Below the pieces are notes generated by a model. It ran no database searches. It saw only the letters and a list, made by a program, of their open reading frames with translations, and had not been told where the DNA came from. Positions 22,186 to 36,590 of a stretch of DNA of 64,000 bases are shown here, piece by piece (the first letter of the stretch is position 1; each line of letters begins with the position of its first letter). Source of the DNA: a virus; the IMG/VR virus record IMGVR_UViG_3300049718_000055, positions 24,633 to 88,632 of that record; one strand, written 5' to 3'. The translations under genes and the position numbers were made by a program.

Positions 22186-22259
22186 TGGTGCTCCCCGCAG
22201 AAATCGAATCCGCATTGGCCGATAATCGGTCGGCTTTCCTACCATTGGAAGAGAGGAGC
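22186..22259 (-). tRNA. tRNA-Ile(GAT), atypical anticodon loop
   Basis: Acceptor GCTCCTC/GGGGAGC, D-loop AATGGTA, stem GCCGA/TCGGC, loop CCGATTA. Position 33 is C rather than U and position 37 is U, so the identity is less certain. CCA encoded. Confidence 0.75.
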
Positions 22260-22423: not shown

Positions 22424-22501
22424 TGGTACTCCCGGTTGGACTCGAACCAACATCAATCCACTTACGGACACTCGCTTCGGAGGCGAGACCGATACGGGAG
22501 C
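22424..22501 (-). tRNA. tRNA-Arg(CCG), non-canonical topology
   Basis: Acceptor GCTCCCG/CGGGAGT, T-arm GTTGG-TTCGAGT-CCAAC and CCA are normal. The anticodon hairpin CTCGC-CTCCGAA-GCGAG begins at nucleotide 15, leaving only TATCGGT for the D region. After it comes a 19-nt segment with CCGTAAGTGGATTGA. CGG before and CCG after the anticodon hairpin can pair. Confidence 0.75.
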
Positions 22502-22506
22502 ATAAC

Positions 22507-22583
22507 TGGGGCCGCTGGCCGGAATCGAACCGGCGTCATCCAACTACTCTTGCCGGTTTAGGAAACCGGAGAGATACAGCGGC
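22507..22583 (-). tRNA. tRNA-Arg(CCT), non-canonical topology
   Basis: Acceptor GCCGCTG/CAGCGGC, T-arm GCCGG-TTCGATT-CCGGC and CCA are normal. Anticodon hairpin CCGGT-TTCCTAA-ACCGG starts at nucleotide 15. CTC before it can pair with GAG after it, and an AGTTGGAT D-loop-like word follows. Confidence 0.75.
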
Positions 22584-22587
22584 AAAC

Positions 22588-22664
22588 TGGCGCTCCCGGC
22601 AGGAGTCGAACCCGCGTCATCCGTCTACGGCCTCCTGTTTAGAAGACAGTGCCGATACGGGAGC
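22588..22664 (-). tRNA. tRNA-Arg(TCT), non-canonical topology
   Basis: Acceptor GCTCCCG/CGGGAGC, normal T-arm, CCA encoded. Anticodon loop CTTCTAA starts early as in the two neighbours; CGG(C) before and (G)CCG after the hairpin pair, followed by TAGACGGATGA. Confidence 0.75.
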
Positions 22665-22936: not shown

Positions 22937-23008
22937 TGGTGCCGCGCCTGAAAATCGAATTCAGCAAACAGGGTTATGAATCCTGCGTTCTCTCCAGAGA
23001 TGCGCGGC
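22937..23008 (-). tRNA. tRNA-Met(CAT) or Ile2
   Basis: Acceptor GCCGCGC/GCGCGGC, loop TTCATAA, CCA encoded. D-arm is minimal (CTCT/AGAG with almost no loop). If C34 is lysidinylated it would read ATA. Confidence 0.8.
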
Positions 23009-23273: not shown

Positions 23274-24452
23274 TCAGTCCTTGTAAGGATCAAATTCACG
23301 GGCAGATGCCATAGCCACTCCGACCGGGGTCAACACGTGAAGAACTTTGATCGAATCTCCACACGCCGCAAGAACTCCGTCTAGCCGTTTGTAGCAGTCT
23401 GGAGATTCGTCTAACCCGGCGCCACGCAGTTCAATTCCGGCCTTCCTTACCCATCCATCCATCATCTCCTGAGTTACTCTTCCAGGGCGCTTGCACTCGC
23501 CTGTCTTGCGGTCGAAAGTCCCCTTCGCCTCCATGCGACCCATTGCACGGCCAGCGCCGTGAACGGTTGAGTAAAGGCTGTACTTGGCATCCTCGTTCTC
23601 CATGCCCTCCAAGATGACGGACTTCTCGCCCATCGTTCCTCCAACGAATCCCTTCTGTCCAGGGAACGCCGGAGTGGCTCCCTTGCGAACAACCCACAGC
23701 ATCTCACCACCATGCTCTTCCCGCCATGCGAAGTTGTGATGGTTGTGAACCTCTTCAATAGCCTTAGCTCCAAGAATCTTAATCACGCGGTCGCAGACCC
23801 AGTTCCTTCCTGCATAAGCGTACTCGCCGGCAAGAGACATAGCCTGTAGATATTCGCTGCCTAGTGCGCTGTCTACCGACAAGACACATGGCTCCACATC
23901 CATTCCGTCTTTTGCTCCTGCTGCTTTCAAAAACCACGTTGCAATCTTATGCCCGAGGCCGCGAGAACCGAAATGAACACCCACCCAAACGCGGTCTTCT
24001 TCGTCTGTAAAAAGATCTACATAATGGTTTCCAGAACCCAAAGTCCCAAGTTGCTGATGAGCCATTTCCTTGAGCGGGGAGGTCATTGAAAGACTCCAGG
24101 CATCATGCTCGAAAACCTGATCGTCTACACGCTCGTCGTCATTCTTTCTCCCAACCCCAAAACTGACTATATTCCATACGTCATCCATTATCGGCTTGAT
24201 GCTGCCACGCAACATCCAGCCTTCCATGTCGGTCAACACGGCCTTGTTTCCACAGCCGATGTCGTATCCCACTCCGGTTGGGCTGATGGAATTTCTATAA
24301 GCCACAACACCGCCAATGGGCACACCGTACCCAAGGTGGTTATCTGGCATCAATGCCACTTTGTCCGCGGTTTTCGCACAGGTCCGAATCTGGTTGAGAG
24401 TCTTTTCTTCAGCTTCCCCAAATACCGGTATAGTTCCATCTACTAACTGCAT
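23274..24452 (-). CDS. rtcB: RtcB-type RNA ligase
   Basis: 392 residues from ATG 24452, chosen because GGAGG lies 8 nt upstream; the longer frame reads into a tRNA. RtcB joins 2',3'-cyclic phosphate (or 3'-phosphate) and 5'-OH RNA ends using GTP and Mn2+. Expected metal ligands are seen: Cys67 (DIGCG), His143 (LGTLGSGNH), His160 (VHFGSRG) and the HNHHNF cluster around 236-241. The guanylated histidine is His298 in VHGAGRAMGR. Shorter than cellular RtcB (about 480) but all active-site blocks are present. Placed inside the tRNA island, so repair of cleaved tRNAs is the likely job. Confidence 0.93.
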   Translation of the reverse strand: MQLVDGTIPVFGEAEEKTLNQIRTCAKTADKVALMPDNHLGYGVPIGGVVAYRNSISPTGVGYDIGCGNKAVLTDMEGWMLRGSIKPIMDDVWNIVSFGVGRKNDDERVDDQVFEHDAWSLSMTSPLKEMAHQQLGTLGSGNHYVDLFTDEEDRVWVGVHFGSRGLGHKIATWFLKAAGAKDGMDVEPCVLSVDSALGSEYLQAMSLAGEYAYAGRNWVCDRVIKILGAKAIEEVHNHHNFAWREEHGGEMLWVVRKGATPAFPGQKGFVGGTMGEKSVILEGMENEDAKYSLYSTVHGAGRAMGRMEAKGTFDRKTGECKRPGRVTQEMMDGWVRKAGIELRGAGLDESPDCYKRLDGVLAACGDSIKVLHVLTPVGVAMASAREFDPYKD

Positions 24453-24473
24453 CCCCATACCCTCCTTTTTATT

Positions 24474-24548
24474 TGGTGAGCGCGGAGGGAATCGAACCCC
24501 CATCGTTGCGTTCGTAGCGCAGCACTCTATCCGTTGAGCTACGCGCCC
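24474..24548 (-). tRNA. tRNA-Arg(ACG)
   Basis: Fully canonical cloverleaf: acceptor GGGCGCG/CGCGCTC, D-stem GCTC/GAGT, loop CTACGAA, CCA encoded. A34 would need deamination to inosine by the host. It contrasts with the three odd Arg tRNAs at 22424-22664. Confidence 0.9.
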
Positions 24549-25210: not shown

Positions 25211-25759
25211 TCAGTTAAACGCATACCTCTTATCACCTTCGGAGTCCGTGAATAAAAACGGACCCCACTCATTTACCTCGGCGCCGAGAGACCTCAACAA
25301 AAATCGCGGCGTGTGAATCGACTGCGGCAGCGGCCGGCGAAGCAACTTCATTCCAGCTTCCTCCGGCGTCCGGTCGGCCTTGCGGTGATTATCTTTGGCG
25401 CAACATGAAACCAAGTTGCTCCACGATGGCGATCCTCCTCTTGACTTTGGAATTATGTGGTCAAGAGTTAGTTCGCTAGTCTTGAACCTTTCTCCGCAAT
25501 ACATACACCTTTCTCCGTCACGAAGAAAAATGTTCTTGCGGCTTACAACTTGAAGCCTAATTGGGACGTGGCGATAAGCGCGAAGCCTGATTACCGATGG
25601 AGCATAGATTCCAAGTCCGCGATGGATAAGTACATCGGTAGGAACCTCAACCAGAGCAACACCTTTCGTAATAAGAGTCAGAGCCTTCTTAACTGAAACT
25701 ATGCGAAGCGGCTCATACGATGCATTGAGAAGAAGTGTTGCGCTTTTTCCTATTGTCAT
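25211..25759 (-). CDS. HNH endonuclease inside the tRNA island
   Basis: 182 residues from ATG 25759 (a GTG at 25768 is also possible). N-terminal LLLNASYEPLRIVSVKKALT is shared by a widespread bacterial/phage HNH family. The nuclease core is RDGERCMYCGERF, LTLDHIIPKSRGG and CCAKDNHRKADRTPEEAG, with the zinc cysteines and the DH active-site pair visible. It ends one base from tRNA-Thr and overlaps the GIY-YIG gene, so it was probably delivered to the island as a mobile nuclease. Confidence 0.85.
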   Translation of the reverse strand: MTIGKSATLLLNASYEPLRIVSVKKALTLITKGVALVEVPTDVLIHRGLGIYAPSVIRLRAYRHVPIRLQVVSRKNIFLRDGERCMYCGERFKTSELTLDHIIPKSRGGSPSWSNLVSCCAKDNHRKADRTPEEAGMKLLRRPLPQSIHTPRFLLRSLGAEVNEWGPFLFTDSEGDKRYAFN

Positions 25760-26531
25760 AGTCACCACGCTCCCAACGTTCTTTCAGTAAAGCAGACATC
25801 TTCGCCTTAGTTTCTTCCTTGTGCTTCATACCTTTGTTTCCAGGTACTCTGCCTTTCCTGATTGCCGACTGTTTAGCCCGTGTTTCTTCGGAAGCCTTTT
25901 TACCTGTCAGAGAGCGAGAAATCTTTGCTTTACTCTCTTCTGAAAGTTTCCTTCGTCTGTTCGCCGCAGAAATCTTCTCACTAAATCCCTGCGGTTTAGG
26001 TCTCCCCTTCAAAGCAGCAGATCGTTTTGCTTTTTCTTCCTCCGACATTGGGCCTAATTTCCGGCCCCTAAATGATGCCGACATACGCGCTTTGGTTTCT
26101 TCCGAACGCTTTGAACCAGTCCTAGATTTAATCATCTTGGCTATCGCCTCTGCTGTGTGTCTCAATCCCTTATGCACAGCAGATACTTTCGCTTTCATTT
26201 CGGCTGTTCTAACCGCTCCTGATCCTCCCTCGCCCCCATCTGTTCTATTTCTCAAGCATCCAGTTCCAAGGTTAATTCTCCCATGGAATTTTATTAGCTG
26301 CTTCTCCATGAAAAACGCTTCGTCCTCTGACAAATCTTTGGCAATAATTACAATCATCGATTTATCTTTTGGAGTACGTATCGCTTCAATAGGATTTTTC
26401 TTATAGGCTCTTAACCCGTGTCCTTTCCCTATGTAATAAGGAGAACCCGCTGGGCCGTGTTCGGAGGCAAAAGTCCTCACGTATTGGTATACGTAAAACC
26501 CAGAGATTACAGGTCTCCTATAGTTACTCAC
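25713..26531 (-). CDS. GIY-YIG homing endonuclease with NUMOD3-type repeats
   Basis: 272 residues from GTG 26531, which has AAGGAAAGAGAG upstream; the longer frame would read through tRNA-Thr(CGT). Residues 10-90 contain FYVYQYV and SPYYIGKGHGLRAY (GIY-YIG catalytic core) and the EAFFMEKQLI glutamate helix. Residues 125-265 hold at least six repeats of SEETKAKxSxxxxGRK type (NUMOD3), a DNA-binding module of homing enzymes. It sits between tRNA genes and likely spreads the surrounding segment into related phages. Confidence 0.88.
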   Translation of the reverse strand: MSNYRRPVISGFYVYQYVRTFASEHGPAGSPYYIGKGHGLRAYKKNPIEAIRTPKDKSMIVIIAKDLSEDEAFFMEKQLIKFHGRINLGTGCLRNRTDGGEGGSGAVRTAEMKAKVSAVHKGLRHTAEAIAKMIKSRTGSKRSEETKARMSASFRGRKLGPMSEEEKAKRSAALKGRPKPQGFSEKISAANRRRKLSEESKAKISRSLTGKKASEETRAKQSAIRKGRVPGNKGMKHKEETKAKMSALLKERWERGDYDNRKKRNTSSQCIV

Positions 26532-26535
26532 TGTC

Positions 26536-26697
26536 TTACTCTCTTTCCTTAAAAGTGGAGCCGGGTAGCGAAATCGAATCGCTGTCTGTGGGATACGAAT
26601 CCACTGCTCTGCCATCTGAGCTAACCCGACTATGTTTTTCTGCTAACCTCTTCCACACTTCTCGGAGATCGGCATTCAAATGAAACCTGTGCGGCAT
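26536..26697 (-). CDS. Possible small ORF running into tRNA-Thr(CGT)
   Basis: 53 residues from ATG 26697, with TTTGGAGGTTGAC before it, a strong ribosome site that is also half of a 15-bp palindrome. The first 25 residues (MPHRFHLNADLREVW ...) look protein-like; the rest reads through the tRNA gene, so it may be a remnant. Confidence 0.3.
   Translation of the reverse strand: MPHRFHLNADLREVWKRLAEKHSRVSSDGRAVDSYPTDSDSISLPGSTFKERE
26556..26630 (-). tRNA. tRNA-Thr(CGT)
   Basis: Acceptor GTCGGGT/ACCCGGC, D-stem GCTC/GAGC, loop TTCGTAT, T-stem AGCGA/TCGCT, CCA encoded. Confidence 0.88.
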
Positions 26698-26958: not shown

Positions 26959-27033
26959 TGGCTGTGCAGGTGGGAGTCGGACCCACATCCTCTCGCTTAA
27001 CAGGCGAACGCTCGACCATTGAGCTACCGCACA
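26959..27033 (-). tRNA. tRNA-Asn(GTT)
   Basis: Acceptor TGTGCGG/CTGCACA, D-stem GCTC/GAGC, loop CTGTTAA, T-stem GTGGG/CCCAC, CCA encoded. Confidence 0.92.
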
Positions 27034-27035
27034 TC

Positions 27036-27074
27036 AAAAAGCCCCTAACCGCTTATTCTCGGCTAGGGGCTTTT
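27036..27074. terminator. Bidirectional rho-independent terminator
   Basis: GCCCCTA...TAGGGGC stem (27041-27070) with A5 before and T4 after, so it can work on both strands. It splits the tRNA island. Confidence 0.8.
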
Positions 27075-27117
27075 CCTCATTTGCTACGTTGTAGCAGTTG
27101 AATCTTTGCGCCCAAGC

Positions 27118-27180
27118 CTACACGGGATTACCGAACGCTTGTGGCGTTGTCGGCTGTCCGGTATGGGCTCGGTTCATCAT
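27118..27180 (-). CDS. 20-residue peptide ORF in the tRNA island
   Basis: Starts ATGATG at 27180 and reads MMNRAHTGQPTTPQAFGNPV. A near-consensus promoter (TTGACA, 17-nt spacer, TAAAGT) places the start site at the ATG itself; AGGAAAC lies between. Function unknown. Confidence 0.45.
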   Translation of the reverse strand: MMNRAHTGQPTTPQAFGNPV

Positions 27181-27216
27181 GTTTCCTACTTTACCGCCGT
27201 TCGCAATTTCTGTCAA
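27181..27216 (-). promoter_or_regulatory. Strong sigma70-type promoter inside the tRNA island
   Basis: TTGACA (27211-27216), 17-nt spacer, TAAAGT (27188-27193), 7 nt to ATG 27180. Drives the peptide ORF and, if read through the terminator at 27036-27074, the downstream tRNAs. Confidence 0.75.
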
Positions 27217-27225
27217 ATCATTTTC

Positions 27226-27302
27226 TGGTAGGGTTGGTGGAACTCGAATCCACTAGGACATGATTGAAGGTCATGGTGCTCGTCCGCTTTGCATTCAACC
27301 CC
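27226..27302 (-). tRNA. tRNA-Glu(TTC), C33
   Basis: Acceptor GGGGTTG/CAACCCT, D-stem TGC/GCA, stem CATGA/TCATG, loop CCTTCAA with C in place of U33, CCA encoded. Confidence 0.85.
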
Positions 27303-27307
27303 ATAAC

Positions 27308-27384
27308 TGGCGCGGTAGACGGAAATCGAATCCGTGTACACGATCTTGAGAGAATCGCTGGAGAACCAGCACCCCTGCTACCGC
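27308..27384 (-). tRNA. tRNA-Glu(CTC)
   Basis: Acceptor GCGGTAG/CTACCGC, D-loop TGCTGGTT, loop CTCTCAA, T-stem ACGGA/TCCGT, CCA encoded. Confidence 0.87.
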
Positions 27385-27385
27385 A

Positions 27386-27460
27386 TGGCGGTCCCACGGG
27401 GAGTTGAACCCCGAACGCCTCTTAGACAGAGAGGAATCATTGCCGTTAGACCATGGGACC
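27386..27460 (-). tRNA. tRNA-Asp(GTC)
   Basis: Acceptor GGTCCCA/TGGGACC, stem CCTCT/AGAGG, loop CTGTCTA, T-stem CGGGG/CCCCG, CCA encoded. Confidence 0.92.
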
Positions 27461-27589
27461 AAAAGTTCCGTTTTGTTTGCCTAGCGGCCCAGTCTCCCAT
27501 CGCATTAGCAGAATTCCGACTGAGGTTCATCCACTGCGGACTCGAGTCCGTTTGCTAGACTCTTGCCAGAACGGTACTGGCCTTTGGAT
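27461..27589 (-). other. Unresolved 129-nt spacer, possibly a degenerate tRNA
   Basis: It is about one class II tRNA in length. ACCGTTC (near 27575) can partly pair with AAACGGA (near 27467), and CGGA-CTCGAGT-CCG resembles an anticodon or T hairpin. No standard T-arm next to the acceptor and no CCA. I see no protein gene. Confidence 0.25.
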
Positions 27590-27664
27590 TGGTTGCGTGG
27601 GGAGGACTCGAACCTCCGGTCTCCAGCTTATGAGGCTGGCGAGATGCCGCTTCTCTACCTCGCC
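27590..27664 (-). tRNA. tRNA-Met(CAT)
   Basis: Acceptor GGCGAGG/CCACGCA with mismatches at 1-72 and one inner pair, D-stem GAGA/TCTC, stem CCAGC/GCTGG, loop CTCATAA, CCA encoded. The 1-72 mismatch recalls initiator tRNA, but the GGG:CCC anticodon-stem signature is absent. Confidence 0.83.
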
Positions 27665-27701
27665 ATTTCAGTATGCCACTACTCTTTCATGTTGGCAAGT
27701 A

Positions 27702-27787
27702 TGGTGCATCGCCCCAGGCTCGAACTGGGCTGCTCCGAAGAGCGGCAGGTTTACAGTCTGCTGGCCGTCCACCCGACCATGCGATGC
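27702..27787 (-). tRNA. tRNA-Tyr(GTA)
   Basis: Acceptor GCATCGC/GCGATGC, loop CTGTAAA, class II variable arm GCTC-TTCG-GAGC, CCA encoded. Confidence 0.92.
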
Positions 27788-27791
27788 AAAA

Positions 27792-27881
27792 TGGAGGAAG
27801 GTGGAGTAATCGAAACCCTACGCCATCGCTGACGCACCACGGTTTTCAGGACCGTTCGCCGACCATTCAGCGGCACCTTCC
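27792..27881 (-). tRNA. tRNA-Ser(TGA), C33
   Basis: Acceptor GGAAGGT/ACCTTCC, stem ACGGT/ACCGT, loop CCTGAAA with C33, class II variable arm, CCA encoded. Confidence 0.87.
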
Positions 27882-27885
27882 AAAC

Positions 27886-27973
27886 TGGCGGAGACGATCC
27901 GATTTGAACGGATGGAACCTTGCGGTTCGGAGGTTTAGCAAACCTCTGGATTAGACCGCTCTCCCACGTCTCC
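27886..27973 (-). tRNA. tRNA-Ser(GCT)
   Basis: Acceptor GGAGACG/CGTCTCC, stem GAGGT/ACCTC, loop TTGCTAA, class II variable arm GAACC-GCAA-GGTTC, CCA encoded. Confidence 0.93.
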
Positions 27974-27978
27974 AAACT

Positions 27979-28054
27979 TGGTGCCGATGGTCGGGTACGA
28001 GCCGACAAGCCTGAAGGTTTGAGCTTCAGAGGTATTCCTTCCCATCACATCGGC
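27979..28054 (-). tRNA. tRNA-Leu(CAA), short variable loop
   Basis: Acceptor GCCGATG/CATCGGC, stem TGAAG/CTTCA, loop CTCAAAC, T-arm GTCGG/CCGAC, CCA encoded. Class I size and a poorly pairing D-arm are unusual for Leu. Confidence 0.78.
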
Positions 28055-28059
28055 AAAAC

Positions 28060-28135
28060 TGGTGCGGGTGGAGGGACTCGAACCCCCATGAGACTGATCC
28101 TAAGTCAGCCGCGTATTCCATTCCGCCACACCCGC
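28060..28135 (-). tRNA. tRNA-Leu(TAG), short variable loop
   Basis: Acceptor GCGGGTG/CACCCGC, loop CTTAGGA, T-loop TTCGAGT, CCA encoded. The D region GGCGGAATGGAATACGCG is Leu-like but the variable loop is short. Confidence 0.83.
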
Positions 28136-28146
28136 ACATCTCAAAC

Positions 28147-28219
28147 TGGAGTACCGGGCCGGACTTTAACCGGCTTCAACGGTTTTGCAGACCGTCCGCT
28201 CGCCCTTCGCTTCCGGTAC
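28147..28219 (-). tRNA. tRNA-Cys(GCA)
   Basis: Acceptor GTACCGG/CCGGTAC, stem ACGGT/ACCGT, loop CTGCAAA, T-stem GCCGG/CCGGC, CCA encoded. Confidence 0.88.
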
Positions 28220-28220
28220 A

Positions 28221-28298
28221 TGGTGCGGGTGAACGGTGTCGAACCGATCCTAAACTGGGCTTAAACCAGTTGCCTCTTCCAACGTGGGCTACACCCGC
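28221..28298 (-). tRNA. tRNA-Leu(TAA), short variable loop
   Basis: Acceptor GCGGGTG/CACCCGC, D-stem GCC/GGC, stem ACTGG/CCAGT, loop TTTAAGC, CCA encoded. First tRNA of the island in transcription order. Confidence 0.85.
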
Positions 28299-28299
28299 A

Positions 28300-28334
28300 C
28301 AAAACAAAGCCGCCGATCTCTTCGACCGGCGGCT
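28300..28334 (-). terminator. Terminator or attenuator upstream of the tRNA island
   Basis: AGCCGCCG...CGGCGGCT stem (28307-28334) followed on the minus strand by TTTGTTTTG. It lies between the only visible promoter (28433-28461) and the first tRNA, so it may attenuate tRNA transcription. Confidence 0.6.
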
Positions 28335-28340
28335 CGTGAA

Positions 28341-28355
28341 TTCCAAACTTTGGAA
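28341..28355. repeat. 15-bp palindrome, perfect copy
   Basis: TTCCAAACTTTGGAA. Located directly after the stop of a small ORF and before the attenuator of the tRNA island. Confidence 0.7.
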
Positions 28356-28442
28356 TCAGTTCACATAAGCCCCCGGCCCGTCAATGGCAGGCAATACGAG
28401 GATAGCGAACTGAGTAAAATTCTCATATCCAAATCTTCCCAC
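28356..28442 (-). CDS. Possible 28-residue peptide
   Basis: GTG-start frame VGRFGYENFTQFAILV ... GAYVN, ending one base before the palindrome. An overlapping frame (28361-28426, ATG) is the alternative; its ATG sits 6 nt after a weak -10. Neither is certain. Confidence 0.25.
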   Translation of the reverse strand: MGRFGYENFTQFAILVLPAIDGPGAYVN

Positions 28443-28461
28443 AGATAATCATTATTGTCAA
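28433..28461 (-). promoter_or_regulatory. Candidate promoter of the tRNA island
   Basis: TTGACA (28456-28461), 17-nt spacer, GAAGAT (28433-28438). The -35 is perfect, the -10 weak. Confidence 0.5.
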
Positions 28462-28524
28462 TCGGTCATTCCGGTACAGTTAAATTCCCCTCTTCGTCCT
28501 CCAATTGAGGCTGAGGTGTACACC

Positions 28525-28740
28525 ATGCCACTAAGTTTGTTTTGGATCATCGCCGTTGTAATCATTGCCGGAGTAGTTCTTTGGGCTCTAAACTCGTTCC
28601 CTGCCATTGACCCCACCATGAAGCAGATCGCCAGAGTGCTTATCATCGTGCTCGTGGTTATCATGGTTCTCTACTTCCTGTTTGGATTGCTTGCAGGTGG
28701 TGGTGCGGGATTCCATAGCTTCCCCGGTCCTTGCCGCTAA
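28525..28740 (+). CDS. Small membrane protein (Thivi_2564-like)
   Basis: 71 residues from ATG 28525, preceded by GAGGTGTACACC. Two hydrophobic helices (about 3-22 and 38-60) separated by FPAIDPTMKQIARVL, the pattern of a small bacterial inner-membrane family. Plus strand and monocistronic, unlike its surroundings. It could change the host membrane; function unknown. Confidence 0.7.
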   Translation: MPLSLFWIIAVVIIAGVVLWALNSFPAIDPTMKQIARVLIIVLVVIMVLYFLFGLLAGGGAGFHSFPGPCR

Positions 28741-28752
28741 TCTTGCCGGCAC

Positions 28753-28782
28753 AAAAAAGCGGCAGACCCGAAAGCCTGCCGC
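28753..28782 (-). terminator. Rho-independent terminator after the 1.28-kDa-residue tail gene
   Basis: GCGGCAG-GCTTTCGGGT-CTGCCGC (28759-28782) followed on the minus strand by TTTTTTGTG. Ends the transcript of the 1278-residue tail protein gene. Confidence 0.85.
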
Positions 28783-28850
28783 ATTCCCCATGATTTGATC
28801 TGCGTTGTTATGAATAAACTCTACATCCGGTCGTAGAAGTTGTCAACCGC

Positions 28851-31800
28851 TCATGGCTCCACAAACAATACTTTCTCGTAGCCTCTCCCTTGGCACTGGA
28901 CCTTGTACCACAAATTAGAATCAGGCCAAAGAATAAAGTCCTCCGTACTTGTTCCGACCATTCTCAGTGTACGGAACGAGATTGCCGGTAGTCGGGTCCG
29001 CAATGGATTGCGAAAGCCGCCAGCTTGCGGCATTACAAATGTGAATCCAGCCGTTGGATTATCGTCGTAGAACACGTTGACAATGATCGGCGCACCCGCT
29101 GAGTAAATCCAGAAAACGTCGCGCGCAAATTTGGAAGATGCCTCCGAAATATTGATCTTGTAAGTGTCGAACGTCTTCCTCGTCCTCGGCAGTACCAGAG
29201 CCTCTACAGCGGCTTGGTACAGGTACGCGAACGTGGACAGATTCCCGACGATCTGGAGACTGATTTTGTAGGCTTGCTGGCCGAGTCCGTTGAGCAACGG
29301 CAGGTTGATCTTGCCGCGAGTCGAGTTGCTGATCGTTCCGAGTGGGACCGTGATTGCGCCGTCATTAAACAAGGCGTTGACGGTCAAGGTCTGCCCCCCG
29401 AGGTTGCAGTCAACCACAATCGCGTTGTACTGTTTCTGGTTTGCCGGCGAGCTTTGGAATGAGTAAGCAGTCTGGAGATTGATTGCAATCGGCCCCGCGG
29501 CCAGTACGCCCCCGCTTGATACTTGATCGTAGGGAAGGTTTTGCCGGTCAATGTGTACGAGCCCGTTTGAATCGCCGTAGAGCAACTGATTCGTATCGGC
29601 CTCAAGCATCAAGCATTGCGCGTCAACGTCATCATTCCTGAATCGCTTGTACTGAGCGTGGTATACCAACCGATGCCGGTTTCCGTCCGTACCGATGTAA
29701 CTGAAAAATACCATTGAGTTCCAGTACGAAGCCACCGTCTGCGACAACTTCGTTTGGTCCGCTTCGACAATCGGAGTGGAACCTACGCCCTGGAAAAGGA
29801 ACTCAACCTGGAGACTCATGTACACCGACTCCCCACCAGTAAAAGCACGTAGACCATCTGCGGCTTGGTAGGCAATCATCTCTTCGGTCGCCACGTACCC
29901 AAATGGCGCCACACAACCATGCGCACAAGACGTGGGATATGGTGCCTGTTTTGCCGGACTGTCCGGTGGAACCATCCACCATCCGCTTTTGATACAACTG
30001 ACCATGATATTTCCCTTGAAAGGCACCACGGCCGTAATGTAATCATCCGGCGTAGAGATGATGATGTTGTTCGCTTCACCCACGTACTGCGGAGCGTTTC
30101 CGGTGCTGAAGTAAAGCGTTGACGGGTTGTTCGGATCTCCCCAATACCATGCCTTGTTGAAAGCTATGACCATGCCGTAGACCGGCTGGCCTACCTTAAT
30201 ACTCGCCTGGACCTGCTCTCCAGCCGCATGATAATTCTGGACAAAGGCAGTGAAAGAACTCACTCCGACTGTCAATACCACTACGGTTTCAAAGTTGTTT
30301 GCTTGAGCCGTTGGATTCCCCAACAAGACTTGCTGGCGCACTGAGATGTTCGCCATGCTTGCCGGGTTTATCGTCACTACAGAGCCCACCGGAATATCTG
30401 GCAGCGTGTAATAGATCGTGACCACTAGATTGTTGACATAGACGGTTGCCGCTGATGATCCTAAGTTGTCTCCGCCTACAAGCGTCTGAGTAAAATCAGC
30501 ATTGACGATTGCAGGAGTAATCGTAGTGCCCCACAAATTTCCACTTCCACCAAAGACATAAGTCTGCGGAGCTAGTGTCAAGGAAATCTCTGCCGGAAGG
30601 GCGGCTCCGGGAATATTTATACTTGCGGTCATCTTAGGACCGAGCACGCTCGTATAAGCATCAAAGCTGACTTTAATTCCGGTGATGGTCGCGGTTAAGG
30701 GGATGCTCGGAAGACTGAAGTCTCCCTGCAAGGCCCCAATCCCTTGCGAAGCAGGTGCCGACACGGACGTATAAAGTGATGAAGATGTAGCGTTGGTTGG
30801 ATTTACCCAAGTAGACCCGACCGGATTCGATCCTGTGATTGACGGAGAAACCTGTAATGTTCCTACAATAGCAGCGTTCAGTGTAGTATTCACCGGAACC
30901 GGAAGAAGACTCGGAACCGGAACATCGTTCGTAAACGAAACCATATCCGCTCCGGCTATCAGGTAGTCCGGTGCCGTGTCGGTATACTGGACTATCCCCC
31001 CGCCCTCTATGCTGATCGGGATTTCGTCTATTCGCCTGAAGTTATCTCCGTAGGTTCCCCCTCTTCTATAGATTCTCAGATACCCGATCTGACCATCCTG
31101 CAACTGTCCTGCGGGTCCGTAAGTCTTAGTGTTGATTTTTAACAACACCGGCTGGCGCCGCGGGTAGACCCAGTTCGTATGGTTAGGCGGGTTCTGATTC
31201 GTCATTATCGGAGATGGATTCGATTCCGTTCCATCCACGTCATTTAAGAACGTCGCAACATAGTCATAGGCTACTCCACCAAGAGTATCTGGACCTGCCC
31301 CTCCAAACAGTACCAGAGAAGAAAGTTTAATCGTCGAGCTTGAGTTGTCATTCATCACAATCGTGATCTGATAGCCGTTGACGTTTGACCAGTTGTAGAC
31401 CGCATCTTTATAGTCCGCCATCCCTGCTCCAGAAAAATCTGACAACTGGAAGAGAAGCGGCGTCCAGATATTTTTCCCTGTATCCAGTTCTCCGATAGAC
31501 CCGGCTCCATTTCCGTAAAGGCTGAGACTATCCTCAAGAACAGCTTCCGTTAGAAGAGTAGTTACGCTACTTGTCCCAGAGGCAGAAGATGTTGCTAAAG
31601 TAGTCAACTCCTGCAAAGGTCCTTGGGAAATTACTTTATAGAAATAGTCGCTCTCGAATGATCCGTCTCCGCAATCAAAACTTAGCGTTATGCTCTGGAT
31701 TTGCGTTTGGTCGCTGACAAACATATAGAGACCAATGTAATCAGATTGGTTGTCGGATACAGTCTCGCTAGAGGGGATAGGATATGGACCTATCGGAAGC

Positions 31801-32687
31801 CCACTAAACGGCGCTGTGATCGTTGCGGTTGTGGACGCCGGCACGATAACCGAAAGAGAGAGGCTTGATATTGACGCCCCAACAGAGTGAGTCTTTGTAA
31901 AATCTGCAACAAACCCGGTTGGCGTCACCAAGAGGACTAAAACTGTTTCCTGATTTGATCCTGTATCGATGGTCAAATGCTGAAACAAATAGATTGCATT
32001 ATTGTCTGCGACTGCCGTGGAAACTGGGTACGTCACCTCCTGAATCCCAATTGCCTTCACCGCAGAGGAAAGATTCGTGTTTACATAGGTTTCGATTGAA
32101 TCGCTGCTTGTTGCTGAAAACGTGTATGGCGTCGTGTCGCTCACATAGTCGTCAAGTACGACAAGCGTCGTTGGAGATTGAGACTGAGCGGTGACCGGGA
32201 ACTGTGGAGGAAAAATTCCTCCCTGCTGGGGAGCAGAGAATGTTCCGTCGTCCTTCCAAAAACCGTTTGAATCCGAGAAAAACGCACTCACGGTGCTCGT
32301 AAAATCAGTATTAGAGAACGATTGAATCGAACATGGGTTTCCGCTGAATGACGTGGATATTTTTGTGAATGCGCCCGGAGTAAGCGCCCCCCGGCGCCAT
32401 AGAGACCCGTCTGCCGTCACGCAGTATCTTGCGTATGCTCCGGCGAGTTGCCCGAGCTTGAAGAGACTGACACATTTTCCTGATAGCGGGTAGACCTCCC
32501 CACCCAACACGCCAGTGCTGTTTACGATTACGCTGCCCAATTTTTGGGCATAGGCTCCTTCCGCCAACTCTTCGACGTTGCACTCGTTTAGCAGACCTTG
32601 GGGGTCCACGAGGTCATCTACCTGACGGGCAAAGATTCCCTTGCTTTTGAACAGCAAAACACTCTCGGCATAGTGCGGATCGGGCAT
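28851..32687 (-). CDS. Large tail protein, possibly beta-propeller nozzle/hub
   Basis: 1278 residues from ATG 32687, chosen because TATTCT lies 6 nt upstream and no ribosome site is visible. N-terminal FKSKGIFARQVDDLVDPQG and SLWRRGALTPGAF resemble the start of P22 gp10-like tail nozzle proteins, which fold as propellers around the DNA channel. The middle is Ser/Thr-rich beta sequence with NYHAAGEQ and VRVGQ-type strands; the C-terminus is a jelly-roll-like FILWPDSNLWYKVQCQGRG. It has its own promoter and terminator. Assignment is by pattern and size only. Confidence 0.6.
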   Translation of the reverse strand: MPDPHYAESVLLFKSKGIFARQVDDLVDPQGLLNECNVEELAEGAYAQKLGSVIVNSTGVLGGEVYPLSGKCVSLFKLGQLAGAYARYCVTADGSLWRRGALTPGAFTKISTSFSGNPCSIQSFSNTDFTSTVSAFFSDSNGFWKDDGTFSAPQQGGIFPPQFPVTAQSQSPTTLVVLDDYVSDTTPYTFSATSSDSIETYVNTNLSSAVKAIGIQEVTYPVSTAVADNNAIYLFQHLTIDTGSNQETVLVLLVTPTGFVADFTKTHSVGASISSLSLSVIVPASTTATITAPFSGLPIGPYPIPSSETVSDNQSDYIGLYMFVSDQTQIQSITLSFDCGDGSFESDYFYKVISQGPLQELTTLATSSASGTSSVTTLLTEAVLEDSLSLYGNGAGSIGELDTGKNIWTPLLFQLSDFSGAGMADYKDAVYNWSNVNGYQITIVMNDNSSSTIKLSSLVLFGGAGPDTLGGVAYDYVATFLNDVDGTESNPSPIMTNQNPPNHTNWVYPRRQPVLLKINTKTYGPAGQLQDGQIGYLRIYRRGGTYGDNFRRIDEIPISIEGGGIVQYTDTAPDYLIAGADMVSFTNDVPVPSLLPVPVNTTLNAAIVGTLQVSPSITGSNPVGSTWVNPTNATSSSLYTSVSAPASQGIGALQGDFSLPSIPLTATITGIKVSFDAYTSVLGPKMTASINIPGAALPAEISLTLAPQTYVFGGSGNLWGTTITPAIVNADFTQTLVGGDNLGSSAATVYVNNLVVTIYYTLPDIPVGSVVTINPASMANISVRQQVLLGNPTAQANNFETVVVLTVGVSSFTAFVQNYHAAGEQVQASIKVGQPVYGMVIAFNKAWYWGDPNNPSTLYFSTGNAPQYVGEANNIIISTPDDYITAVVPFKGNIMVSCIKSGWWMVPPDSPAKQAPYPTSCAHGCVAPFGYVATEEMIAYQAADGLRAFTGGESVYMSLQVEFLFQGVGSTPIVEADQTKLSQTVASYWNSMVFFSYIGTDGNRHRLVYHAQYKRFRNDDVDAQCLMLEADTNQLLYGDSNGLVHIDRQNLPYDQVSSGGVLAAGPIAINLQTAYSFQSSPANQKQYNAIVVDCNLGGQTLTVNALFNDGAITVPLGTISNSTRGKINLPLLNGLGQQAYKISLQIVGNLSTFAYLYQAAVEALVLPRTRKTFDTYKINISEASSKFARDVFWIYSAGAPIIVNVFYDDNPTAGFTFVMPQAGGFRNPLRTRLPAISFRTLRMVGTSTEDFILWPDSNLWYKVQCQGRGYEKVLFVEP

Positions 32688-32699
32688 GACCACAGAATA
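32688..32699 (-). promoter_or_regulatory. Leaderless-type promoter: TATTCT-N6-ATG
   Basis: TATTCT (32694-32699), GTGGTC, ATG 32687. The -35 region is not recognisable. Confidence 0.5.
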
Positions 32700-32723
32700 C
32701 CGCTGTCTAAGCTGTAGATGCCA

Positions 32724-32846
32724 CTATTTTCCCCACATAAACCGAAACCCGTTCAAAACGCCCAGAACAAACAGCAGACTAACTGCCATCAAAAAGTATT
32801 CCTGCCATTCGAATTTTAGGTTTCTCTTTGCGTTCCTGTGTCGCAT
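32724..32846 (-). CDS. Small single-pass membrane protein
   Basis: 40 residues from ATG 32846 with GGAGGCG upstream. Basic N-terminus then EYFLMAVSLLFVLGVL as one membrane helix. Overlaps the previous stop (TGATG). Role unknown. Confidence 0.55.
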   Translation of the reverse strand: MRHRNAKRNLKFEWQEYFLMAVSLLFVLGVLNGFRFMWGK

Positions 32847-33025
32847 CACGCCTCCTGCCGAACCAGCGGCCTTCTGGACGCTTCCCGCATCCGCCTGATG
32901 ATCTCGTTCAAACATTCCTCTTCCCGGCGCTTCGCGTAGTTGTTTCCCTCGTCCAAAGCCGCAGACTCCAACGATTCCGTCCACTCGTTGAATAAATCAT
33001 TGTTGCTGATCTTCTGAAGGTTCAC
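32846..33025 (-). CDS. Small helical hypothetical protein
   Basis: 59 residues, GTG start at 33025 after GGAGAG. Charged helix: NNDLFNEWTESLESAALDEG then KRREEECLNEIIRRM. Probably forms a coiled coil. Coupled to both neighbours. Confidence 0.55.
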   Translation of the reverse strand: MNLQKISNNDLFNEWTESLESAALDEGNNYAKRREEECLNEIIRRMREASRRPLVRQEA

Positions 33026-33028
33026 GTC

Positions 33029-33451
33029 TTACTCTCCGGTCCAGAGCTTCTCAAGCACTTCCTTGACCCCAAGCATCACCATCCCGTAAGGGGTTCTATA
33101 AATCCCCCCTTTACCTGGACGCAAAAATTCCGAGAAATCCTGCTCAAGTAAATGGCCGTTCGCGGATCTTATCTGCTCAAGCGCCCTGCCTGCCATCATC
33201 AAGTTCTGCTTGCGGTGGTATTCTTGATTTTCTTGACTCTCCATCTCCCTTTCCAGTTCATCCTCGAAGTCTTGGCCGATGATTCGTTCGAGGATAGACA
33301 TAGCAGCATTCATGCGCTTATGAATAAATTCCTCTTCAGGGTCATTCTCCGGCTGTCTCGTGATTCCTGCGTAGGTTTGCATGGCCCTCTCCAAGTGCGG
33401 TTTAACGAATTGGATATACTCTCTGGTTCCGCAAATAACGTCCGGTTGCAT
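33029..33451 (-). CDS. Hypothetical protein
   Basis: 140 residues, mostly helical, with GKGGIYRTPYGMVMLGVKEVLEKLW at the end. No family recognised. Preceded by a copy of the 15-bp palindrome. Confidence 0.6.
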   Translation of the reverse strand: MQPDVICGTREYIQFVKPHLERAMQTYAGITRQPENDPEEEFIHKRMNAAMSILERIIGQDFEDELEREMESQENQEYHRKQNLMMAGRALEQIRSANGHLLEQDFSEFLRPGKGGIYRTPYGMVMLGVKEVLEKLWTGE

Positions 33452-33456
33452 GGTTA

Positions 33457-33471
33457 CTCCAAATTTTGGAA
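33457..33471. repeat. 15-bp palindrome, one mismatch
   Basis: CTCCAAATTTTGGAA in the 22-bp gap before ATG 33451. Confidence 0.6.
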
Positions 33472-33473
33472 TC

Positions 33474-33938
33474 CTACAATTGCTTGAGGCTAATCTTGCC
33501 GCCGTTTTTATCGATGAGCTTCGCCTGATTCAAAGCGGCCACCACGTTCGTCACTGTTCGAGTAGCGCATCCAAGGATGATGCGAAGTTGGGTTTGGTTC
33601 ATCTCTCCATGAACCATCAAGGCGTCGATTGCCCTTGCCGTCGCGCCCCCGAGCCTCTGCTTCCACTGCTCCCATGCGGCGCTATTTCGAGGACTTGCCG
33701 CGCTGGTTGAAGTCCCATCCGAAACACCCATCGACTCGATCTCACCAAACACCTGCCTGAGTGCTTGATAAAGTGGGTTGAGGGCACTGCGCAATTCACG
33801 AACCCCATCCTCAACCGAATTCGCCCTTCCTTGCTCAACCAGACGAGCCGATTCACTTTCCCGTAGTTGAGATTTCAATCGGATAATCGTTTCGTCGCGG
33901 TCGTCAACCGCACCTTCAAGCAGTAGTGGTCGCAGCAC
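33474..33938 (-). CDS. Coiled-coil protein with C-terminal winged helix
   Basis: 154 residues. Residues 10-70 form a charged coiled coil; residues 98-154 (MVHGEMNQTQLRIILGCATRTVTNVVAALNQ) are a MarR-like helix-turn-helix. Likely DNA-binding and oligomeric, perhaps a regulator. Overlaps the J-domain gene by 23 bp. Confidence 0.65.
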   Translation of the reverse strand: MLRPLLLEGAVDDRDETIIRLKSQLRESESARLVEQGRANSVEDGVRELRSALNPLYQALRQVFGEIESMGVSDGTSTSAASPRNSAAWEQWKQRLGGATARAIDALMVHGEMNQTQLRIILGCATRTVTNVVAALNQAKLIDKNGGKISLKQL

Positions 33939-34533
33939 TTGATCCTCCTGTCAACTTCGCCCGGAATGCTCCGAGGGTTTGCGTAAGAATCGCCGGAGCC
34001 CCAACCCTCTCAAGGCCGCGGATATAAGAGAAGGCTAGCCGTAGAGCGCATAGATTCAGCCGCGCCTCGCTGTATTGGTCAATCCCCATCACAAATTCGT
34101 GAGCGTGAGCGTGAGATCCGGTAATCCAGTTCTTTGCTTGAGTCCGCCATTCTGCTAGGCGCTTGAATGCTTCTGGGTCGCCACCATCAGAATTATCGGG
34201 ATGCACCTTACGAGCTTTTAGTTTGAAAGCAGAGTCAATTTCGCCAAAGGTCGGCATGGGCGTTTCCAGCCCTAATCCCTGCTGCCAACCAAAGTCTTCT
34301 TTCTTCATCGTCCACCATACCGCCACTCCAGGGTCCAGACGATCATCCCCGGTACGGGTTATTAGAATCGAGGTAGCTCCCATTTTGTCCAGTTCGCCGG
34401 CAAGCATGTTCTGGTACTCTTGACGAGTTTTCTTCCAAGCGTGCTGCGGACGGCGTTCCCTGATGCGGGTCCGCTCACAACCATCCGGCCAGCGCAGTTT
34501 CAGTTCTTCTGCTACTTCAATCTTCTTCGCCAT
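33916..34533 (-). CDS. J-domain-containing protein
   Basis: 205 residues from ATG 34533 (AAGGAG upstream). A DnaJ-type helix pair with the HPD signature appears near residue 110: FKLKARKVHPDN then EAFKRLAEWR. J-domains stimulate a host DnaK ATPase, and phage J-proteins may recruit the chaperone to replication or assembly complexes. The N-terminal half has no recognised fold. Overlaps both neighbours. Confidence 0.75.
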   Translation of the reverse strand: MAKKIEVAEELKLRWPDGCERTRIRERRPQHAWKKTRQEYQNMLAGELDKMGATSILITRTGDDRLDPGVAVWWTMKKEDFGWQQGLGLETPMPTFGEIDSAFKLKARKVHPDNSDGGDPEAFKRLAEWRTQAKNWITGSHAHAHEFVMGIDQYSEARLNLCALRLAFSYIRGLERVGAPAILTQTLGAFRAKLTGGSSAATTTA

Positions 34534-34702
34534 CTTCATCTCCTTCGGTAAACCGCTCACCGCATTCCAAACATTCGTACACAGCGTTTCCGTCATCGTC
34601 CTCGCCAAGAGATTCTAGTTCGTCGCTGCCGCATTCAGGACACACAACGGTTTCTTCTATCTCTTCGTCGTCGTAAAATTCGTCGTCAAGGTCTTCAGGC
34701 AT
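34517..34702 (-). CDS. Acidic zinc-ribbon protein
   Basis: 61 residues. CPECGSDELESLG and CLECGERF make a four-Cys zinc ribbon flanked by Asp/Glu-rich ends. Common small phage protein; function unknown. Confidence 0.75.
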   Translation of the reverse strand: MPEDLDDEFYDDEEIEETVVCPECGSDELESLGEDDDGNAVYECLECGERFTEGDEDGEED

Positions 34703-35456
34703 GGCTATCCTTCCCGAGAAGGTGAGCTTCGTGCATCATGCGAAAGAACTCCATGCCTCGATCATCAGAACTTTTGTCTAGAACAGAATAGGTTGTCGCA
34801 AATCCGCACGAACAAACAACCGCCCTAGATGAACCGATATTGTTTGAGAACACTTCCTGACGGCATTCTGGTACGGATGGTTGCGGCATAACTTTTATGC
34901 GTGGGTAAAACTCCCCAACCTTCGGTTGCTCAGGGTCAGATTCAGTGAATTGCTGTATGCGGGTTACGCTGTGAATAAGGACTGCACCTGATTCCTGTTT
35001 CAGAAGAGTGCATTTGTAGGCTCCACCAGGAGTATAGATGGTGACGACTTCCGGCGCAGCTTCCGGCTCTGGGGCAAGGTACATCCGGCGAACCGTTTCG
35101 ATAGCCTCACTAGACGCCAATCCCCACCACCCTGGACTTGAAACAAGACTCAATGCTAAAGCAACTAGCTTTTTGTCCTGCCAGAGGATGAAGGCTTCGA
35201 GAGCCTTGGGGAGTTTCTGCGCGATGATATGGACAATCACCGGACTATCGTGATAGACCCCATTAGAAGGTTGCAGAAACGCTTCCTTCGCCACCTTCAA
35301 CCCCTCTTCAGGTACTGCGTAGTGTTGCTCGGTCATCACTGTCTCCCTCATTTCTTTTGCGTTGCAAGGCGAACTGTATTTTCCTTGACCCCGCCGCCGC
35401 ATCTTCTCTTTGAATCCAGGCGGGCATTTCACATAACCTTTAAACACTCTTCCCAT
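34695..35456 (-). CDS. Hypothetical protein with N-terminal Cys motif
   Basis: 253 residues from ATG 35456, which has GGAGGAATTCTG upstream. Starts GRVFKGYVKCPPGFKEKMRRRGQ. Residues 60-130 are hydrophobic helices (ALEAFILWQDKKLVALALSL); a VVCSCGF near 220 could bind metal. An internal ATG with AGGGAGA (MTEQHY) could give a 213-residue form. No family recognised. Confidence 0.6.
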   Translation of the reverse strand: MGRVFKGYVKCPPGFKEKMRRRGQGKYSSPCNAKEMRETVMTEQHYAVPEEGLKVAKEAFLQPSNGVYHDSPVIVHIIAQKLPKALEAFILWQDKKLVALALSLVSSPGWWGLASSEAIETVRRMYLAPEPEAAPEVVTIYTPGGAYKCTLLKQESGAVLIHSVTRIQQFTESDPEQPKVGEFYPRIKVMPQPSVPECRQEVFSNNIGSSRAVVCSCGFATTYSVLDKSSDDRGMEFFRMMHEAHLLGKDSHA

Positions 35457-35478
35457 CAGAATTCCTCCAGTTCCACTC

Positions 35479-35622
35479 TCATGGCCTACTCCATCCTCTC
35501 GCTCGTGACTTGTGACTTCGAGAATTACTCTTGTGATGCCTTCGAGGAGTACCGCACTGCGTAGCCGCGAAGAACAGTCCTATAACAACCACAACGGCAA
35601 TCACTACTCCCAGTGCGTTCAA
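35479..35622 (-). CDS. Small membrane protein with basic tail
   Basis: 47 residues, TTG start at 35622 after GGAGGAAC. One hydrophobic helix (VVIAVVVVIGLFFAA) then an Arg/Ser/His-rich tail. Start overlaps the previous stop (TTGA). Confidence 0.5.
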   Translation of the reverse strand: MNALGVVIAVVVVIGLFFAATQCGTPRRHHKSNSRSHKSRARGWSRP

Positions 35623-35923: not shown

Positions 35924-35959
35924 CACTTCAACTCTCCTCTCCCAATCCGGCAGACCGGC

Positions 35960-36585: not shown

Positions 36586-36590
36586 AGATT

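Follow-up and report, generated by a model that had tools for sequence, protein, structure and literature searches.

We describe three tRNA-Arg-like genes, with anticodons CCG, CCT and TCT, on the minus strand of a 64,000-nucleotide stretch of viral DNA (IMG/VR record IMGVR_UViG_3300049718_000055, positions 24,633 to 88,632), which is referred to as a whole as the window. In standard tRNA numbering, their predicted chain order is [1-9][22-47][10-21][48-76], so that the D/anticodon domain (nucleotides 10-47) is read as circularly permuted inside an unchanged acceptor/T domain. We regard it as nearly certain that this topology is real. To our knowledge, every described tRNA retains the order acceptor-D-anticodon-variable-T. 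The permuted genes are tRNA by descent and probably also by work, forming a new topological class within tRNA. Taken as a whole, our results make it likely that this is a functional tRNA class with a different backbone topology and standard three-dimensional contacts, spread among tailed phages of diverse hosts (Enterobacteria, Pseudomonas, Streptomyces, Rhodococcus, Microbacterium, Bacteroides) and overlooked by gene finders, in which the re-wiring possibly aids defence evasion.

Chain order of the window genes

A preliminary description of this DNA had placed the three genes correctly, each with an encoded CCA behind it (Table 1), and the layout that it gave applies to all three: an acceptor strand of 7 nucleotides (nt), a 7-nt linker, an anticodon hairpin starting at nucleotide 15, 18-19 nt, a T-arm, and CCA. 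All 7 acceptor pairs and all 5 T-stem pairs form in each gene, and the anticodon stem is complete in the CCG and CCT genes (5/5 each) and has 4/5 pairs in the TCT gene (A.G at 27-43). The descriptor matched the window three times, with 0.00 matches expected by chance (100 shuffles of the window). A canonical fold of these genes was rejected because the 7-nt linker leaves no space for a D-hairpin.

The linker can be read as nucleotides 8, 9, 22, 23, 24, 25 and 26, and the segment behind the anticodon arm as 44-46/47, followed by 10-20, 20a-c, 21 and 48. Nucleotides 10-21, which comprise the 5' strand of the D-stem and the D-loop, are thus placed between 47 and 48 and not between 9 and 22. Under this numbering, the core bases U8, A9, A14, R15 (a purine), G18, G19, A20, A21 and 48 take their normal places, and therefore only the 5' strand and the loop of the D-arm have moved. 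The preliminary description had moved the entire D-arm behind the anticodon arm; this holds for nucleotides 10-21, while the 3' strand (22-25) still stands before the anticodon arm. U8, A14 and G18G19 are present in all three window genes. In place of the canonical order of arms, 7-8 nt separate the acceptor from the anticodon arm, and the D-strand and D-loop word come after it, in the three window genes and in 128 parsed Arg homologues that were themselves collected by that layout.

In other respects, the permuted genes resemble ordinary cloverleaf tRNAs (RF00005; bacterial tRNA-Arg and tRNA-Ile). They share the acceptor, anticodon and T stems, the T-loop, U8, A14, G18G19, A21 and the 15-48 pair, as well as A20 in the Arg forms, a CCA encoded in many, and a location in phage tRNA arrays. 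The stem sizes are also canonical, with 7 base pairs (bp) in the acceptor stem and 5 bp with a 7-nt loop in both the anticodon arm and the T-arm. However, unlike ordinary tRNAs with their 1-76 order, the permuted genes have no hairpin D-arm, and their D-stem extends the anticodon helix across a bulge.

Table 1 Permuted genes of the window with their parts, other window features, and permuted genes of named phages. L numbers are our locus handles.
Feature	Location	Strand	Remarks
Permuted tRNA-Arg(CCG)	22424..22501; body 22427-22501, encoded CCA 22424-22426	(-)	Descriptor match and covariance model
CCG gene, transposed block (nt 10-21)	22453..22467	(-)	D-stem 5' strand CCG, T13 A14 A15 G16 T17 G18 G19 A20 ... 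A21; T48 at 22452
CCG gene, 7-nt linker	22488..22494	(-)	T8 A9 T22 C23 G24 G25 T26
CCG gene, 5' to 3' (acceptor/linker/anticodon arm/segment/T-arm/acceptor)			GCTCCCG / TATCGGT / CTCGC-CTCCGAA-GCGAG / TGTCCGTAAGTGGATTGAT / GTTGG-TTCGAGT-CCAAC / CGGGAGT A CCA
Permuted tRNA-Arg(CCT)	22507..22583; body 22510-22583, encoded CCA 22507-22509	(-)	Descriptor match and covariance model
CCT gene, transposed block (nt 10-21)	22536..22549	(-)	GAG T A G T T G G A ... A21; C48 at 22535
CCT gene, 7-nt linker	22570..22576	(-)	T8 A9 T22 C23 T24 C25 T26
CCT gene, 5' to 3' (parts as above)			GCCGCTG / TATCTCT / CCGGT-TTCCTAA-ACCGG / CAAGAGTAGTTGGATGAC / GCCGG-TTCGATT-CCGGC / CAGCGGC C CCA
Permuted tRNA-Arg(TCT)	22588..22664; body 22591-22664, encoded CCA 22588-22590	(-)	Descriptor match and covariance model
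TCT gene, transposed block (nt 10-21)	22617..22630	(-)	CCG T A G A C G G A ... A21; C48 at 22616
TCT gene, 7-nt linker	22651..22657	(-)	T8 A9 T22 C23 G24 G25 C26
TCT gene, 5' to 3' (parts as above)			GCTCCCG / TATCGGC / ACTGT-CTTCTAA-ACAGG / AGGCCGTAGACGGATGAC / GCGGG-TTCGACT-CCTGC / CGGGAGC G CCA
Ordinary tRNA-Arg(ACG)	24474..24548	(-)	Sole Arg tRNA reported by ARAGORN in the window
RtcB-type RNA ligase within tRNA array	23274..24503	(-)	Context; action on the permuted tRNAs not implied
phi92	L361 3001-3079		Unannotated
Phage Antha	L362		Same gene as phi92, annotated 'tRNA-OTHER'
Felix O1	Record 25951-26029, L394		Permuted UCU gene in tRNA cluster; ORF45 begins within its 3' part
Klebsiella phage Spivey	L395		Permuted gene
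Proteus phage Mydo	L397		Permuted gene
Erwinia phage Ep030	L365		Permuted gene
Pseudomonas phage Boevelstad	L359		Permuted gene
Streptomyces phage Comrade	L357		Permuted gene
Streptomyces phage Jay2Jay	L364		Permuted Ile gene
Streptomyces phage Yaboi	L398		Permuted gene, annotated tRNA-Val(aac)
Microbacterium phage Magritte	L358		One permuted Arg, one permuted Ile
Microbacterium phage Zooman	L360		Permuted gene
Rhodococcus phage NiceHouse	L396		Permuted gene
crAss-like Kehishuvirus 'tikkala'	L363		Permuted Ile; acceptor pairs 5/7

In two homologues (L210:1156 and L359:3985), the linker has 8 nt and the T-arm follows G19 at a greater distance, and the spacing is therefore flexible. A permuted gene with a UAU anticodon (L334:4368-4457, plus strand) contains, between positions 20 and 21, an added hairpin of 5 bp that resembles an extra arm set in a new position.

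Co-variation, folding and detection

Homologues were collected by pattern scans. The first scan of IMG/VR fixed TATC, U33, A37A38, GTA, GG and TTCRA, and left free the anticodon and whether the acceptor, anticodon and T stems pair. It returned 42 loci, comprising 32 true ones, in which the three stems form, and 10 chance matches. The acceptor stem has 7/7 pairs in 30 of the 32 true loci, and an Arg anticodon, which the pattern did not fix, is found in all 32; with nucleotide 20 left free, A20 is absent from one of them (L010). Further scans led to 128 distinct Arg genes on at least 116 loci, the window included (anticodons TCT 70, CCT 25, ACG 16, CCG 8, TCG 8, GCG 1). The whole collection comprises at least 158 distinct genes on at least 139 loci, most of which are IMG/VR contigs, with cultured phages represented as well. 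The 158-gene set required pairs 12-23 and 11-24, and the gene of phage Felix O1 was added after that set. Nucleotide 20 was fixed as A in two of these scans, required to be other than A in one, and left free in four, the first scan among them. It should be noted that some scans were weak, reaching 8-9-nt linkers or chance frames, and that one gave few true matches (L050, L153). A generic descriptor run on the collected loci yielded 143 distinct candidates; by eye, those with isotypes beyond Arg, Ile, CAU and Val were ordinary tRNAs or shifted Arg readings, and some labelled Ile or Val were likewise false.

The preliminary description had reported a co-varying pairing of the linker (CGG/CCG and CTC/GAG) next to a D-loop-like word, and had named homologues without these pairs as an observation that would speak against it. 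The 128 distinct Arg homologues retain the pairing. Pair 24-11 holds in 128/128 genes, with G-C in 70, C-G in 25, U-A in 17 and A-U in 16 (2000 shuffles: mean 59.6, maximum 75), and pair 25-10 in 109/128 (2000 shuffles: mean 57.6, maximum 81). The anticodon arm and the TA..GG word were the sole anchors for these counts, and neither pair was fixed by the patterns. Pair 23-12 also holds in 128/128 genes, but it was largely fixed by the searches, and there is no extra pair between 26 and the base preceding 10 (19/128 Arg genes versus 21.9 in shuffles).

Bases of the tertiary core that were not fixed by the patterns behave in the same way. The Levitt pair 15-48 is A-U in 107 of the 128 Arg genes, G-C in 7, G-G in 13 and A-C in 1, such that one of the first three combinations is found in 127/128, and its two positions co-vary (A/G at 15 versus U/other at 48; Fisher P 1.8e-22). 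A purine occupies position 15 in 128/128 Arg genes, and A21 is present in 158/158 genes. In a gapless alignment of 47 sequences, none of them a window gene, 97.3% of cells pair, compared with 63.9% in shuffles and 37-43% with slid partners, and both sides have changed in 316 cells, compared with 86.4 and 46-64, respectively. In this alignment, pair 24-11 (columns 12-37) has the commonest pair in 24 sequences and a change at both positions in 23, with no sequence breaking it, and 15-48 pairs in 47/47.

These patterns bear on whether the genes could instead encode D-arm-less tRNAs with a long variable region, in mitochondrial style, the D-loop-like word and its pairing being coincidental or decorative. 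Run with permissive filters, the Rfam tRNA model (RF00005) finds two of the three window genes at 35 bits (cut-off 29), and in both alignments it skips the D-arm and inserts 15-16 nt in the variable region, as this reading would have it; the D-stem is also rarely dominant in thermodynamic folding. D-arm-less mitochondrial tRNAs, e.g., nematode tRNA-Ser, are similar in that the D-arm position holds no hairpin, but they drop the D-arm or use a connector (available part of PMC7609411), whereas the phage genes keep the D-stem strand and D-loop elsewhere, co-varying, behind the anticodon arm. We consider D-arm-less tRNAs very unlikely, because a free variable region would lose the unfixed 24-11 pair, which appears as four pair types without exception, together with the co-varying 15-48, the invariant A21 and the purine at 15.

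Several results, along with these Rfam alignments, weigh against a permuted tRNA. Pair 25-10 is broken in 19/128 Arg genes and in 15/47 sequences of the alignment, position 13-22 is mostly U.U, and no CCA is encoded after 49/136 Arg genes of the 158-gene set (it is encoded after 87/136). In ViennaRNA, pairs 12-23 and 11-24 have P > 0.5 in only 21/158 genes (D-stem pairs in a control with swapped strands, 2/384), RNAalifold does not predict the D-stem, and, when folded singly, the CCG and TCT genes give other structures, while the CCT gene gives the proposed one. A weak D-stem in energy models is expected, because a 3-bp helix across a bulge relies on tertiary contacts; nevertheless, the outcome counts against proof from secondary structure alone. 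Furthermore, the conservation of several elements follows from the way in which the genes were collected: the patterns or the descriptor prescribed U8, A9, U13, A14, G18G19, U33 and the T-loop word, and C23-G12 was prescribed in the first IMG/VR scan, in both scans with A20 fixed and in the scan excluding A20.

A covariance model of the permuted layout (R1), built from the 47-sequence alignment and thus without the window genes, separates the class from ordinary tRNAs. R1 scores the window genes at 77.9, 65.2 and 64.0 bits, and the next place in the window at 31.3 bits. The three genes also stand out on the 88.6-kilobase (kb) record, where six further matches, ordinary tRNAs included, score 23.8-31.3 bits. 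Over 14 sources, 21 permuted genes, one of which (L172:2447-2522) was in the training set, score at least 51.3 bits, the variant with the added hairpin scores 37.3 bits, and all else is at or below 33.4 bits, these matches being ordinary tRNAs in those inspected.

ARAGORN overlooks 153/158 permuted genes; the 24 tRNA genes that it reports in the window lie between 22.1 and 28.3 kb, every one on the minus strand, and do not include the three permuted ones. The fourth Arg tRNA of the window (ACG) is among those reported, in agreement with the earlier view that it is ordinary. A default Rfam scan of the window reports none of the three permuted genes, and even with permissive filters the TCT gene goes to the tRNA-Sec model (RF01852) at 28.1 bits, below the cut-off of 47. 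Among five genes of named phages, three reach the Rfam tRNA cut-off (L361 38.6, L359 36.5, L364 30.8), and L357 and L363 are unlisted; the D-strand is out of place in the Rfam alignments that were inspected. The Rfam matches and ARAGORN misses together indicate that the genes are not wholly invisible, yet mostly overlooked. The class probably went unnoticed because gene finders presume the cloverleaf order.

A long-acceptor tRNA of the tRNA-Sec kind has an acceptor plus T helix of 13 bp and a UCA anticodon, whereas the window genes have 7 + 5 bp and Arg anticodons. Allo-tRNAs, and tRNA-Sec (available part of PMC7609411), are comparable as non-standard and apparently functional architectures, but they alter stem lengths, whereas the phage genes alter the order of arms. 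No earlier description of phage tRNAs with a permuted backbone was found by title and opening of the abstract in the open-access PubMed Central literature, a body that leaves subscription journals and preprints outside. In their available parts, a review of non-canonical tRNAs (PMC7609411) does not mention permutation, phage, virus or rearrangement, and a review of circularly permuted tRNA genes (PMC3978253) does not mention phage.

Putative decoding role and fold

By anticodon, the 158-gene set divides into 136 Arg, 18 Ile, 3 CAU and 1 Val genes. The hypothesis that the class is Arg-only was rejected, as the scan excluding A20, which also required TATC, G12, TTCGA and CCA and left the anticodon free, gave 23 loci, 22 of them true, with UAU, GAU, CAU or UAC anticodons. 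Among the classic identity bases, A20 and C35 specify Arg, and A73 is part of the set for Ile. A20 is present in 135/136 Arg genes versus 0/22 Ile, CAU and Val genes, all of which have U20 (Fisher P 5e-26); some scans selected A or not-A at position 20, and no scan selected the anticodon. The 22 non-Arg genes share A73 and U.U at 27-43 without exception, and the permuted genes with an Arg anticodon carry the bacterial tRNA-Arg identity set (A20, C35, G36/U36). The CAU forms, which are similar to the Ile forms, may represent tRNA-Ile2 of the lysidine type. Two scans for further isotypes without the C23-G12 constraint, both demanding CCA, non-A at 20 and fixed spacings, yielded 17 loci, none of them true.

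The permuted genes supply anticodons that the ordinary tRNAs around them mostly lack. Where a locus, itself a partial contig, carries three or more ordinary tRNAs, an ordinary tRNA of the same anticodon accompanies only 5/95 permuted Arg genes, compared with a mean of 23.7 and a minimum of 12 in 5000 anticodon shuffles. ARAGORN reports no ordinary tRNA with anticodon CCG, CCT or TCT in the window, and the codons CGG, AGG and AGA make up 118 + 131 + 132 = 381 of the 662 Arg codons in its 28 long open reading frames (hand-picked). For phage Felix O1, the genome paper described AGA as over-represented and a tRNA for AGA as expected but not found, and its table gives one Arg tRNA (ACG) in the available part (PMC3185647). 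The permuted UCU gene of Felix O1 fits this missing tRNA, which is the strongest outside hint that the permuted genes do tRNA work.

Judged from these sequence features, the permuted genes very probably encode working tRNAs, which would serve AGA, AGG, CGN, AUA and AUC/AUU codons during infection. By the known identity rules, host arginyl-tRNA synthetase would charge the Arg forms via A20, C35 and G36/U36, and host isoleucyl-tRNA synthetase would charge the UAU and GAU forms, which bear U20 and A73. It is improbable that they are instead non-decoding, tRNA-derived RNAs, such as decoys for host tRNA nucleases, regulators or decaying pseudogenes. Such a role would accord with the finding that phage tRNAs can counter tRNA-cutting defences (available parts of PMC10264068 and PMC11555353) and with the 49/136 Arg genes that have no encoded CCA. 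However, decay is ruled out by the strong stems and the co-variation, the anticodon and nucleotide 20 change jointly, A73 is kept in all 22 non-Arg genes, and the filling of anticodon gaps would be unneeded for a decoy.

A chain of this order could still adopt the usual fold. In the tertiary core of tRNA-Phe, the layers are 9-12-23, 13-22-46, 10-25-45, 8-14-21 and 15-48, the last two being adjacent; strand 22-25 of an ordinary tRNA leads directly into the anticodon helix, with 10-13 stacked on 44-45. The permuted chain would run from the acceptor 5' strand through U8 A9, 22-25, 26, the anticodon arm, 44-47, 10-21, 48 and the T-arm to the acceptor 3' strand and CCA. Both strands of the D-stem would then lie in their usual places, with the connections alone altered. 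We infer the usual L fold because the joints 9 to 22, 44-47 to 10, and 21 to 48 each bridge neighbours in the tertiary core. With a normal L-shape, the RNA would be cut by RNase P and would receive or keep its CCA. Permuted topology, working elongator tRNAs and an L-shaped fold, as predicted here jointly, have a strong likelihood.

The mature molecule would be canonical if the permutation existed in the gene alone and the transcript were cut and re-joined, perhaps by a phage RtcB ligase, an idea favoured by the RtcB or RNA ligase genes near several permuted genes (window 23274-24503; Boevelstad, Zooman). Circular permutation of the tRNA sequence, with a canonical mature tRNA after processing, is indeed found in genes of Cyanidioschyzon merolae, green algae and Thermofilum pendens (available part of PMC3978253). 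However, in the phage genes the inner domain alone is permuted and no processing is apparent. In the known permuted genes, the 3' half comes first and the acceptor ends are linked through an intervening sequence (PMC3978253, same part), whereas here the acceptor strands stand at both gene ends in canonical order. In addition, there is no spacer, three cuts and three ligations would be required, and no RtcB is annotated in the 6-kb stretches of either phi92 or Felix O1. Re-joining is thus extremely improbable.

If the permuted reading is true, tRNA function rests on contacts and not on chain order. Should the molecules work, the order of arms would be dispensable, and the D/anticodon domain could be permuted as long as the identity bases and tertiary contacts are kept. 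This is relevant to tRNA folding, to the two-domain view of how tRNA arose, and to the reading of tRNA shape by synthetases and the ribosome. It would also fill gaps in phage tRNA sets, for which present tRNA counts would be too low, and would offer a new tRNA chassis for synthetic biology.

Distribution, origin and genomic context

Permuted genes in named phages were confirmed by the descriptor, and by R1 where it was run (Table 1). By similarity, the phi92-type gene matches 238 phage records (233 covering at least 80% of the query), including 20 that give the host as E. coli K-12 MG1655; the Jay2Jay-type gene matches 81 (79) and the Comrade-type gene 26 (26). These three sets may overlap, and the permuted layout was parsed only in the phages named individually. 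Among the matches listed, most have no annotated feature beneath them.

Cellular genomes are almost devoid of the class. In 84,980 species genomes, 41 loci matched the pattern and 2 were true. One is a contig of 5.7 kb from a Parachlamydia bin (L172), with two genes, and the other is from Aquamicrobium zhengzhouense (L203). The L203 gene adjoins a tRNA-Pro and a phage-integrase-like gene (PF00589, 26.0 bits; cut-off 27.1), as expected of an integrated element. Across 297 genomes from the order to which G002 belongs, R1 was positive in two, one of which was the already known G002 itself. The near-absence from cellular genomes suggests that the class belongs to phages and mobile DNA and not to host chromosomes in general. 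The L203 query matched 35 plasmid records, none over more than 80% of its length, and the 10 matches listed fall in annotated protein genes.

This distribution touches on a further possibility, that the genes are working tRNAs whose topology is kept beyond mere history, as an escape from a host enzyme such as an anticodon nuclease, a tRNA-cutting toxin or a D-arm-binding enzyme. Consistent with this, the class is almost missing from cellular genomes, one cellular copy adjoins the integrase-like gene, and the anticodons found are limited to Arg, Ile, CAU and Val. However, the same phages bear many ordinary tRNAs, and the isotype restriction may reflect descent, with other isotypes covered by the scans in part. 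We regard such selection as doubtful, albeit conceivable.

The anticodons of Arg(UCU) and Ile(UAU) differ by one base, at position 35, and an Ile(UAU) form could derive from Arg(UCU) by C35 to A35 plus A20 to U20. In a FastTree phylogeny of the 158 sequences, with the anticodon and nucleotides 20 and 73 masked or removed, the Ile, CAU and Val genes cluster, with 7 changes versus at least 17 in 200 shuffles. The common node of these genes has a support of 0.077 and includes 29 Arg genes, so that it does not establish a single origin of the Ile forms, a point that we count against our reading. The tree is compatible with a derivation of the Ile forms from the Arg forms and is no proof of it. The permuted order itself likely originated by duplication of segment 10-47, after which the first copy of 10-21 and the last copy of 22-47 were lost.

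The 88.6-kb virus record to which the window belongs is that of a tailed phage, with recognisable genes for terminase, portal, major head protein and RtcB ligase. A gene containing NUMOD3 and probably encoding a homing endonuclease lies within the tRNA array (25713-26615, minus strand). HNH genes adjoin or overlap the permuted gene in phages Spivey and Felix O1, and RNA ligase genes are also near that of phages Boevelstad and Zooman.

In phage T5 (L399), the tRNA array includes rna1, rna2 and rna3, stable tRNA-like RNAs, and no Arg tRNA is annotated in the stretch examined. By the descriptor and R1, these RNAs (RNA1, RNA2, RNA3) do not belong to the permuted class; in T5 27000-40000, the descriptor finds no permuted gene and the best R1 score is 31.8.

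ARAGORN also overlooked two further tRNA-like genes on the minus strand of the window. A CAU-anticodon gene in canonical order (22937-23008) has a very short D-loop (CTCTGGAGAG), and a GAT-anticodon tRNA (22187-22259) has C, not U, at position 33. Genes for transfer-messenger RNA lie within other phage tRNA arrays (L327:8016-8388 and L357:11194-11471).
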